From: Evansella clarkii
GTDB taxonomy: Bacteria; Bacillota; Bacilli; Bacillales; Salisediminibacteriaceae
Assembly (NCBI RefSeq): GCF_002019695.1
Contig: NZ_KV917376.1
Coordinates: forward strand, 1,815,047 to 1,879,046
Length of the DNA: 64,000 bases
Reading direction: 5' to 3'
The position numbers and the translations under genes were made by a program. The number at the start of each line of letters is the position of its first letter. The first letter of the stretch is position 1. The notes beneath the pieces are model-generated. The model saw only the letters and a list, made by a program, of their open reading frames with translations, was not told the origin of the DNA and did no database searches. Of this stretch, positions 18,056-33,985 are shown piece after piece.

Positions 18056-18507
18056 TTGCATAGTCTCGCATACCCGCTCGAGTGAAAAAAGCAGAAGAGC
18101 GGTAACGCAAGGAGGTCTTGCATGCCCGCTCGAGCGAAAAAAGCAGAAGAGCGGTAACGCAAGAAGGTCTTGCATGCCCGCTTGAGCGAAAAAAGCGGTA
18201 GAGCGGTAACGTAAAAGAGTCTCGCATACCCGCTAGAGAGAAAAAAGCAGAAGAGCGGTAACGCAAGAGAGTCTCGCGTGCCCGCTCGAGTGAAAAAAGC
18301 AGAAGAGCGGTAACGCAAGAGAGTCTCGCATACCCGCATGAGCGAAAAAAGCAGTAGAGCGGTAACGCAAGAGAGGCTTGCATACCCGCATGAGCGAAAA
18401 AAGCAGAAGAGCGGTAACGCAAGAGAGTCTCGCATGCCCGCTTGAGATAACAAAACCAGTCAGAGGTAACGCAGGAAAGTCTCTTGTACCCGAGCAAAAC
18501 ATAAAAT
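18056..18507. repeat. Tandem array 1: nine 52-bp units inside the opu operon
   Basis: The CCC of the motif ATGCCCGCTCGAG recurs at 18073, 18125, 18177, 18229, 18281, 18333, 18385, 18437 and 18489, always exactly 52 bp apart. A typical unit runs GCAAGAAGGTCTTGCATGCC, then CGCTCGAGCG, an A-tract and GCAGAAGAGCGGTAAC. The last unit is diverged. The period is not a multiple of three and each reverse-strand frame gives similar peptides, so those ORFs are artefacts. The array fills the gap between the ATPase and second permease genes. Confidence 0.9.
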
Positions 18508-22085: not shown

Positions 22086-22181
22086 CTTTCCAGGAGAGTA
22101 TGGAAAATTGATGCGAAGCTGATTTGGCGGGTGAAAGTTTTTATTAGAAAGCCCCCCCCTGAGTATGTCCAGCTTCATTAT

Positions 22182-22890
22182 TCAAGGGATGCAAGAAGGC
22201 CTTGCACCCCATGAGAATGTCCGGCCTCACTACTCAAGTGATGCAAGAAGGCCTTGCATCCCATGAGCATGATCGCCTCCCCTATTCAAGGGATGCAAGA
22301 AGGCCATGCATCCCCTGAGTATGGCCGGCTACACTTTTCAAGGGATGCAAGAAGGTCTTGCACCCCATGAGCATGATCGGCTCCACTTTTCAAGGGGTGC
22401 AAGAAGGCCTTGCAACCCATGAGAATGTCCGGCTCCACTGTTTAAGGGATGCAAGAAAGCCATGCATCCCTTGAGTATGTCCGGCTCCACTACTCAAGGG
22501 ATGCAAGAAGGTCTTGCATCCCATGAGAATGTCCGGCTCCACTGTTTAAGGGATGCAAGAAGGTCTTGCATCCCATGAGAATGTCCGGCTTCACTATTAA
22601 AGGGGCGCAAGAAGGTCTTGCACCCCATGAGAATGTCCGGCTTCACTATTCAAGGGATGCAAGAAGGTCTTGCACCCCATGAGCATGAGCGGCTACACTT
22701 TTCAAGGGGCGCAAGAAGGCCATGCACCCCATGAGCATGACCGGCTACACTTTTCAAGGGATGCAAGAAGGTCTTGCATCCCATGAGCATGACCGGCTAC
22801 ACTTTTCAAGGGATGCAAGAAGGTCTTGCATCCCATGAGAATGTCCGGCTTCACTATTCAAGGGATGCAAGAAGGCCATGCACCTCATTA
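22182..22890. repeat. Tandem array 2: fourteen 52-bp units with hairpin cores
   Basis: The core GATGCAAGAAGG recurs at 22188, 22240, 22292, 22344, 22396, 22448, 22500, 22552, 22604, 22656, 22708, 22760, 22812 and 22864: fourteen copies at exactly 52 bp. Most units contain a near-perfect 10-bp hairpin, GGGATGCAAG / CTTGCATCCC around AAGGT, then CATGAGAATGTCCGGCTCC and a short variable stretch. There is no coding sense. The array occupies nearly all of the gap between asparagine synthetase and the histidine kinase. Confidence 0.92.
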
Positions 22891-31787: not shown

Positions 31788-32093
31788 ATGGGAAGTATTT
31801 TAGATAAAATTGCTAATAAAGATGCGATCACTGACGAAGTAATCGCGACAGATATGCTCGTTACAGCTAAAGCAACTGTAAGAAGCTATGCAGTTGCGAT
31901 TACAGAAACAGCCAGCCCGGAAGTCCATAAAATTCTGAAGAAGCAGCTTGACGAAGCGATAGAAACGCATCATAAAATTGCCACGTACATGATTGAGAAC
32001 GAAATGTATCATGCATACGATATTGATGAGCAAATTAAACATGACCAGCAAAAAGCCGATATGGCACTGGATATGCCGGAAGACAACCGATAA
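31788..32093 (+). CDS. Spore coat protein, CotF family
   Basis: This 101-residue protein contains the Coat F domain: IATDMLVTAKATVRSYAVAI, EVHKILKKQLDEAIETHHKI and a Tyr-rich tail, YMIENEMYHAYD. It is a four-helix-bundle fold related to ferritin-like proteins, assembled into the spore coat late in sporulation. The gene is preceded by AGGAAGGTG and the 63-residue partner, and followed by a strong terminator. Its presence marks the host as an endospore former. Confidence 0.87.
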   Translation: MGSILDKIANKDAITDEVIATDMLVTAKATVRSYAVAITETASPEVHKILKKQLDEAIETHHKIATYMIENEMYHAYDIDEQIKHDQQKADMALDMPEDNR

Positions 32094-32105
32094 ATATGGA
32101 CTGAA

Positions 32106-32136
32106 AAGAACCTGGAATGCTTCCAGGTTCTTTTTG
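32106..32136 (+). terminator. Terminator after the coat genes
   Basis: GAACCTGGAA (32108-32117) and TTCCAGGTTC (32121-32130) form a perfect 10-bp stem, followed by TTTTTG. Confidence 0.9.
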
Positions 32137-32173
32137 TTTAGGAAGATAACGAATAATGTGTTTTGAGTAAAAT

Positions 32174-32244
32174 TTGGTTTGATATCCTGGCGGAAAGATA
32201 ATAGTAATAGGGAGGAAGATTCGGGAGACTGCGCGAATCTTTTA
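32174..32244 (+). promoter_or_regulatory. Candidate promoter and leader hairpin of the peroxiredoxin gene
   Basis: TTGGTT (32174-32179), 17 bp, then GATAAT (32197-32202) is a possible promoter. Downstream, AGATTCG (32217-32223) pairs with CGAATCT (32234-32240) before TTTA, which may be a weak attenuator. Both are read only from pattern. Confidence 0.35.
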
Positions 32245-32348
32245 TAGAAATGAGGGAAAAGCTTATTTATAAAACAAGCATAAACTGTTCAGCCGAATAG
32301 AGTGATTCAGCCTGAATGGCGGAGCTGCTTGTATAGGAGGTGGGCTTA

Positions 32349-32813
32349 ATGGCGGAACCTGAAGTTGGTTCGGCAGCGCCGGACTTTTATTTATCTTCGA
32401 CCAGGAAGGAAAAGATCTCACTGGAAGACTACAGAGGAGAAAAAAATATTCTCCTTGCTTTCTTCCCGCTTGATTTTACCCCTGGTTGAATTAGAGAACT
32501 AACCTCTTGGAAAGAGGACTACGAGAAACTTGAACGGCTCGATACAGAAGTTTTAGCGGTGAGTGTCGATCATATATACTCCCATAATGTTTTTGAAGCA
32601 AGCCTGGGAACCCTTCCTTACCCTTTGCTGTCCGACTGGTTTAAGGAAACGGCGAGGGCTTACGGGGTGCTGAATGAAGAGGATCTCACTGCCAAAAGAT
32701 CAGTGTTCATCATTAACAAGAACGGTGATATAGTCTACAAGAATACCGCATTTAAAGCGGATGTCCATGAGGATTATGAAGCATGCATCCGTAAGCTGGA
32801 GGAATTGATTTAG
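32349..32813 (+). CDS. Peroxiredoxin, probable selenoprotein (in-frame TGA at the catalytic residue)
   Basis: From ATG 32349 (AGGAGGTGG at 32336-32344) the frame encodes a normal-length AhpC/TSA peroxiredoxin of 154 residues interrupted only by TGA at codon 47. The surrounding protein reads FFPLDFTPG-TGA-IRELTSW: TGA stands where peroxiredoxins have the peroxidatic Cys of the FTPxC motif. Homology continues downstream (VLAVSVDHIYSH, LLSDWFKETARAYGV, RSVFIINKNGDIVY), with a possible resolving Cys in EACIRKL. A hairpin follows the TGA at bSECIS distance. I read it as selenocysteine insertion, giving a thiol- or selenol-dependent peroxide reductase; a nonsense pseudogene is the alternative. Confidence 0.75.
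32503..32517 (+). promoter_or_regulatory. Candidate bacterial SECIS hairpin
   Basis: CCTCTT (32503-32508) pairs perfectly with AAGAGG (32512-32517) across a GGA loop. The loop begins 20 nt after the TGA at 32487-32489 and has G at its first two positions. Published bSECIS models ask for a loop G about 16-37 nt after UGA. The hairpin lies within the coding frame, as bacterial SECIS elements do. Confidence 0.6.
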
Positions 32814-32822
32814 TGGTTTGTA

Positions 32823-32855
32823 CCCTCTCCTTTATGAAGGAGGGGGATTTTTTTG
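32823..32855 (+). terminator. Terminator after the peroxiredoxin
   Basis: CCTCTCCTT and GAAGGAGGGG pair around a short loop, followed by ATTTTTTTG. Confidence 0.8.
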
Positions 32856-33087
32856 TTGTGTGGTGGAAGAACGGATAGGGGCGAGAGAGTATAAGATATG
32901 AAATGGTGTTGGCGGTTTGCAGATGTTGAACAAGTTACTAGCTTGGCTGGTTATAATTTGAGATTGGTGAGAGAGCTTGTCACATTTTTTATTGATGAGT
33001 CATAAAATAATAGCAGAAATACCGTTGGTGGTGTATAAATTCCTCTTTTTTCCACAAAAATAATATAAAAAGGCGGGGTGATGAAGA

Positions 33088-33285
33088 ATGGGTCTGTTTC
33101 AGTCTTTCTCCAATTGGCAGTCTGGAAGAAAGCAGAGAAGAATTAGTGAAATGCAGGCAAAGAATAAGTGTCCGGATTGTGGAGGGAAGGGATTTTATAT
33201 GTTTTCCAATGAGTATTTTATGACGACGCCATACGATTGTCCAGGATGTAACGGCAGCGGCACTTTTTCTGATTGGGTTAAGTAG
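33088..33285 (+). CDS. Small DnaJ-type zinc-finger protein
   Basis: This 65-residue basic protein has two zinc-binding knuckles: CPDCGGKG (residues about 28-35) and CPGCNGSG (about 52-59), the CxxCxGxG repeat of the DnaJ cysteine-rich domain. With only two repeats it would bind a single zinc. No J-domain is present. Proteins like this are usually uncharacterised; a role in binding protein or RNA is possible but not shown. A GGCGGGGTG motif precedes the ATG. The gene stands alone. Confidence 0.7.
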   Translation: MGLFQSFSNWQSGRKQRRISEMQAKNKCPDCGGKGFYMFSNEYFMTTPYDCPGCNGSGTFSDWVK

Positions 33286-33653
33286 CAGGTTAGTTGTGGT
33301 TTAGTTGCTGGGGCAGGGAGCTGTGAAGGTGGGAAGGCGGTCTTTTGTCCACTCAATCGCTAATTTAGTTATAGTCTTGTCGTTGGATTGGTTGTCTTCG
33401 AAGAGATGCTCCTCGGAAATTAATTTATGGTTCTTTCCAGCAGGAGAGTTATGAAAGACTGATGGATGAAAAACCGTGCTGGGTTGAGAGACTTACTTCG
33501 GAGGAGGAGCAGGAAAGAATAGTTGACGAAGAGCCGTTTGGGTTGAGAGTGAAGCTTCGAAGTGTGAAAAAGGTCAATATAACTGCCGGTTTCAATTGGA
33601 ACTGTGTTATGGCTAGAATGCAAAGGTGATTTGCATTCTTTTTTGGGTTAGGA
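33286..33653. other. Intergenic stretch with no convincing gene
   Basis: A 55-codon frame from 33462 (MDEKPCWVERLTSEEE...) is present on the plus strand but has no good ribosome binding site, and I recognise no family. Nothing else is seen before array 3. Confidence 0.4.
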
Positions 33654-33985
33654 AGCAGTGCGAGAGCGTCTTGCATCCCATGAGCGAGAGAAAGGGATGA
33701 CCTCAAGTAGTGCGAGAGCGTCTTGCATCCCATGAGCGAGAGAAAGGGATGACCTCAAGTAGTGCGAGAGCGTCTTGCATCCCATGAGCGAGAGAAAGGG
33801 ATGACCTCAAGTAGTGCGAGAGCGTCTTGCATCCCATGAGCGAGAGGAGGGCGTTAACCCAAGTAGTGCAAGAGCGTCTTGCACCCCATAAGCGGGAGGA
33901 GGGCGTTACCTCAAGTAGTGCAAGAGCGTCTTGCATCCCATGAATGAGAAGATAGCATAAACTCAAGGGATACAAGAGTATAAAT
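33654..33985. repeat. Tandem array 3: seven 52-bp units
   Basis: The CGAGAGCG/CAAGAGCG core recurs at 33661, 33713, 33765, 33817, 33869, 33921 and (diverged) 33973, always exactly 52 bp apart. A unit is TGCGAGAGCGTCTTGCATCC, then CATGAGCGAGAGAAAGGGAT and GACCTCAAGTAG. It shares the TCTTGCATCCCATGAG block with array 2 and TCTTGCAT with array 1. The first four units are almost identical, suggesting recent expansion; the outer units are decayed. Sequence between its end and 34255 is AT-rich and shows no gene. Confidence 0.92.

Follow-up and report, generated by a model that had tools for sequence, protein, structure and literature searches.

Peroxiredoxins that carry selenocysteine (Sec) in a TxxU motif are an established family (PMC9312934, PMC2398784, PMC13188914). 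One survey counted 12 Sec-peroxiredoxins, together with three selenoproteins in Bacillales (PMC1794560), and another reports 91 Sec-peroxiredoxins in 78 organisms (PMC5029168). Members of this selenoprotein family (PF00578), such as PrxU of Eubacterium acidaminophilum, are described as combining an AhpC/TSA domain with a peroxidatic Sec in TxxU (PMC9312934, PMC13188914), and the protein discussed here is predicted to have the same arrangement. Neither this protein nor the clade of FTPGU sequences to which it belongs was named among the matches listed in a literature search of titles and abstract openings.

The gene lies in a 64,000-nucleotide stretch of DNA from Evansella clarkii, the whole of which is termed the window. 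We conclude, with a probability of about 0.95, that it encodes a single-selenocysteine, AhpE-like peroxiredoxin, with Sec predicted at position 47 by way of SelB and a hairpin. It is almost certainly a selenoprotein gene and not a pseudogene. An earlier note on this DNA had proposed a probable selenoprotein, and the proposal is now supported by the Sec machinery of the genome, conservation of the TGA codon, a covarying hairpin and constraint on the protein. The features of the locus are summarized in Table 1.

Table 1. Features of the peroxiredoxin locus, in window coordinates
Feature	Position	Strand	Remarks
Shine-Dalgarno AGGAGGTG	32335..32342	+	6 nt upstream of the ATG
Sec-peroxiredoxin gene	32349..32813	+	154 codons plus TAG, single frame read through the TGA; ATG at 32349 and TAG at 32811-32813
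In-frame TGA, codon 47, predicted selenocysteine codon	32487..32489	+	peroxidatic position within PLDFTPGU
bSECIS hairpin (candidate)	32503..32517	+	6-bp stem CCUCUU/AAGAGG, GGA loop
Terminator-like hairpin, 10 pairs, with T-rich tail	32823..32856	+	pattern match, directly 3' of the gene

The TGA at codon 47 is the sole internal stop of the frame. The locus had been described beforehand as one peroxiredoxin frame with a strong ribosome binding site, broken only at this codon, and both the frame and the Shine-Dalgarno sequence bear this out. The read-through protein matches the Pfam AhpC-TSA model with 113.5 bits (cut-off 26) over residues 6-130, spanning the TGA. This match, and the substitution pattern given below, agree with the claim that the coding sequence downstream is intact. 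A scan of the plus strand from 32000 to 33000 for sigma-70-type promoters gave no promoter-like site, and the pattern scan that found the terminator-like hairpin also gave two terminator-like matches on the plus strand within the gene itself. We compared the neighboring genes at 81 loci, the window plus the best 80 of 98 relatives. No neighbor is widely shared; the commonest cluster occurs at 19 of the 81, in scattered places, and neighbors common to groups of about ten loci look genus-bound. Given the lack of a widely shared neighbor, the peroxiredoxin gene looks like a one-gene unit. Elsewhere the window contains three tandem-repeat arrays of a 52-bp unit, at 18062-18483 (8.1 copies), 22156-22882 (14.0 copies) and 33653-33943 (5.6 copies); the consensus units of the second and third have CTTGCATCCCATGAG in common.

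The genome has the machinery for Sec insertion. The earlier note had suggested a search for selA, selB, selC and selD, and all four are present in one cluster of about 6 kb. The tRNA-Sec, with anticodon TCA, scores 62.2 bits against a gathering score of 47, and SelB, SelD and SelA reach 363.6, 412.7 and 544.3 bits, where the NCBIfam cut-offs are 242.25, 125 and 267.9 respectively. The selD gene itself contains one TGA, in SSKAGUGCK. Remnants of integrase- and transposase-like ORFs, identified by eye, adjoin selC and selB (L016:9336-11595). Further genes with an in-frame TGA are found in the same genome. A second TGA peroxiredoxin (L132, G000:C1:2712358-2712744) has the TGA at its active site, FTFVU-PTE, with a predicted hairpin after it. 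Two formate-dehydrogenase-like matches each have an in-frame TGA, one of them in ARIUHS (L182, G000:C1:2258925-2259677) and the other in a second Fdh-alpha-like sequence (G000:C1:3636219-3636986, one TGA); both score below the cut-off of the Fdh model.

SelB above its curated cut-off was found in 109 of 199 genomes sampled from the genus, family and order, the present genome included. Sec decoding is therefore common in this order, and the earlier opinion that Sec use is uncommon in the group was wrong. All 27 genomes that carry the peroxiredoxin gene have selB, compared with 82 of the 172 non-carriers (Fisher p = 1.6e-8, with relatedness ignored). The gene is patchy, being absent from 82 of the 109 selB genomes. 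Among eight other genomes of the genus it is present in five (G001-G004 and G008) and absent from G005-G007, of which G006 and G007 do have selB.

The TGA is conserved in every close homologue examined. In the sample of 199 genomes a close homologue is present in 27 (E 5.1e-51 or better), and each has TGA at the same codon (27/27). When 84,980 species were scanned, each represented by a single genome, 98 relatives were obtained, and the best 80 of these again all have TGA at that codon (80/80); the carriers among them include Evansella, Salipaludibacillus, Neobacillus, Fictibacillus, Mesobacillus, Rossellomorea and Alkalicoccus. In total 107 of 107 loci, including the best 80 of the 98 relatives, have TGA at codon 47. 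These loci come from two overlapping collections in which some genomes occur twice; the 360-nt stretch is complete in 106, which comprise 90 distinct sequences. The earlier note had pointed to the homologues as a check on this codon. None has TGT or TGC there, and the window copy shows no evident decay relative to its nearest kin. No Cys ortholog of the FTPGU clade was found in the genomes sampled, which include the best 80 of the 98 relatives; one may occur among the other 18.

Broader scans were also made. In 397 genomes of the order there are 54 matches at E <= 1e-30 in 49 genomes, each with one TGA, the position of which was read only for loci inspected individually. By score 32 of the 54 (at least 230 bits) belong to the clade of the window protein, and 22 (109-119 bits) are of a second kind with the motif WTPVU, assigned by score and from the few that were fetched. 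In 398 genomes of the class there are seven matches at E <= 1e-35 in seven genomes, each with one internal TGA. The best stop-free match in 398 genomes of the phylum, of the Cys type, scores 115 bits, compared with at least 210 bits for four FTPGU matches in the class sample. In a phylogenetic tree, 20 FTPGU rows and the long-branched FTGGU row L149, whose place is unsure, form one clade with support of 99/98, all of them Sec. Long branches lead to seven rows (L134, L149, L132, L133, L131, L169 and L043), and according to a warning from the tree program the FTPGU clade and the L131/L169 group may have been joined falsely. The number of Cys/Sec label changes on the tree is two, a count that leaves out the L132 lineage, which has U.

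The protein remains under constraint beyond the TGA. Over the 62 codons that follow the hairpin, the window copy and its nearest relative in the genus (L018) differ by 14 synonymous changes and one non-synonymous change. For pairs more distant than this one, synonymous sites are saturated in the dN/dS table. For 89 moderately distant pairs, mean pN/pS is 0.13 across the 20 codons that precede the TGA and 0.18 across the 62 that follow the hairpin.

The hairpin claimed to lie shortly after the TGA, with a perfect 6-bp stem and a GGA loop, was found; it begins 13 nt after the TGA and its loop 19 nt after it. In a published bSECIS model the loop has 3-9 nt with a G within its first two positions, the stem has 4-16 bp, the distance from UGA to loop is 16-37 nt, and the minimum free energy is -7.5 kcal/mol or lower (PMC13188914). 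The 3-nt GGA loop with its G, the 6-bp stem and the 19-nt spacing are within these ranges; the energy of -6.0 kcal/mol, or -6.5 over 52 nt, misses the limit. Taken by itself the energy is unremarkable (z = -1.27), and 22 of 200 shuffled sequences fold equally well. At E values up to 10, an Rfam search of 32000-33200 returned 13 matches; all fell short of the gathering score, and none covered the hairpin.

While energy alone does not separate the hairpin from shuffled sequences, its conservation over 86 distinct segments places it above chance. Stem pairing is kept in 99.8% of cells compared with 98.3% in shuffles, and double-sided compensatory changes are found at four of the six stem pairs compared with 0.3 in shuffles; none of 500 shuffles reaches either value. 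The cells changed on both sides are few (8/516). In displaced versions of the stem, 65-68% of cells pair. In one relative (L138) the residues change from Ser to Leu and from Glu to Arg, yet all six stem pairs are intact. Codon use within the hairpin is close to uniform across the 90 distinct sequences, with Thr ACC in 51/51, Ser TCT in 87/89, Lys AAA in 88/90 and Glu GAG in 86/88; the share of the top codon at the other positions of the stretch, Trp apart, is 0.24-0.92. The hairpin codons are thus nearly frozen at synonymous sites, which shows a putative SECIS constraint over the protein codons.

Other explanations of the TGA must be considered against these data. If the gene were a pseudogene, derived from an ordinary Cys peroxiredoxin by a nonsense mutation, it would contain just such an in-frame TGA, and nothing else about the locus points in that direction. 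Yet the codon is common to all 107 loci (including the best 80 of 98 relatives), every one of the 54 order and seven class matches at the thresholds above has one internal TGA, and constraint persists after it, at 14 synonymous to one non-synonymous change. We give a pseudogene practically no weight. Alternatively, leaky decoding that does not involve SelB might place tryptophan or some other standard residue at the UGA, and low-level UGA leakiness is known in Bacillus. This is highly improbable here: codon 47 corresponds to the catalytic Cys of homologues, the hairpin covaries, the gene is confined to selB-bearing genomes among the 199, and the gene uses TGG for both of its Trp codons (54 and 97).

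Translation could also yield a 46-residue peptide and, independently, a C-terminal fragment of 84 amino acids from the GTG at 32559, where an ORF is mechanically present. However, codons 48-70, between the TGA and 32559, include residues that are invariant in 31 of 31 rows, for example E50, W54 and K55, and we know of no function for a peroxiredoxin that is split in the middle of the active site. The likelihood of two such products is negligible. A selenium-dependent switch, with a function for the truncated as well as for the full-length form, would draw on UGA termination under selenium shortage, which would generate the 46-residue peptide; we consider it very unlikely.

We return to the single full-length selenoprotein, for which we infer Sec insertion, peroxidase activity and a reductant along the following lines. 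SelB carrying Sec-tRNA would bind the hairpin immediately after the UGA, so placing selenocysteine at position 47, and where selenium or SelB is absent the chain would terminate at residue 46. The selenolate at 47, predicted to be surrounded by the invariant Thr44 and Arg117, would attack hydrogen peroxide or an organic peroxide and become a selenenic acid. Since no resolving Cys is conserved, the selenenic acid would probably be reduced by a thiol from outside the protein, possibly bacillithiol or thioredoxin, although the reductant is a guess. Bacillithiol is possible because bshA is present in the genome (569.8 bits, cut-off 273.7); the neighboring genes at the 81 loci (the window and the best 80 of 98 relatives) give no pointer to the reductant.

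TxxU Sec-peroxiredoxins are known, and the notable trait of the FTPGU clade is, as far as the sampled genomes indicate, that no Cys form was found. We put at even odds the broader proposal that these are obligately selenium-dependent peroxiredoxins of spore-forming Bacillota, existing in the Sec form only with no Cys ortholog, having a near-invariant SECIS, and being lost when the Sec machinery is lost instead of going back to Cys. If all of that is true, cysteine cannot serve the function of the clade. With 107 of 107 loci Sec (including the best 80 of 98 relatives), the clade would be a natural setting in which to test why certain peroxidases retain selenium, and the same peroxiredoxin design is present in close relatives among other spore-forming bacteria. 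Annotation that takes TGA as a stop would lose or split the gene, and peroxide defence in many Bacillaceae would then be misread.

How does the protein relate to peroxiredoxins of known type? By sequence its best solved relatives are two 2-Cys peroxiredoxins followed by the 1-Cys enzyme AhpE of Mycobacterium tuberculosis (Rv2238c; 5id2, E 6.2e-22), with moderate similarity only. AhpE has Cys where the window protein has the predicted Sec. The likeness, known from sequence only, extends to the resolving Cys, which is not conserved in the FTPGU clade. The U column is the only one that is Cys or Sec throughout in alignments of 27 and 31 rows, and the next most frequent Cys column has Cys in 13 of 31 rows. 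A mark described for AhpE is Tyr or Phe, and not the His of Prx6, eight residues before the active site (PMC12697902). By that rule 88 of the 90 distinct relatives resemble AhpE (Tyr in 78, Phe in 10, His in two). The window protein has F39 there, and so differs from 1-Cys peroxiredoxins of the Prx6 type, which have an active-site His at this position.

The WTPVU peroxiredoxins of Bacillales and other Bacillota (L044-L046, L139-L141, L150, L155, L156 and L172) have TGA at the same TxxU position as the window gene. They form a separate group in the tree, and the three that were fetched have 38-45% identity to the window protein. In six of them (L044-L046 and L139-L141), from Bacillales and kin, the motif reads PLDWTPVUGAQMPSYEDDL.

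In the wider motif PxxxTxxU, the Thr is present in all 90 distinct relatives and the Pro in 50, the remaining 40 having Gly; the window protein has Pro. The active site of its clade is FTPGUI(K/R)E, compared with FTFVUPTE in the second TGA peroxiredoxin of the genome (L132). At E <= 0.001 the window protein matches 14 NCBIfam models, in every case under the cut-off. Its best score, 71.7 bits, is to the PrxU equivalog NF040737, well below the cut-off of 270. Carriers of Sec-peroxiredoxins of the PrxU kind are generally strict anaerobes, whereas the FTPGU clade is found in Bacillaceae and their kin.
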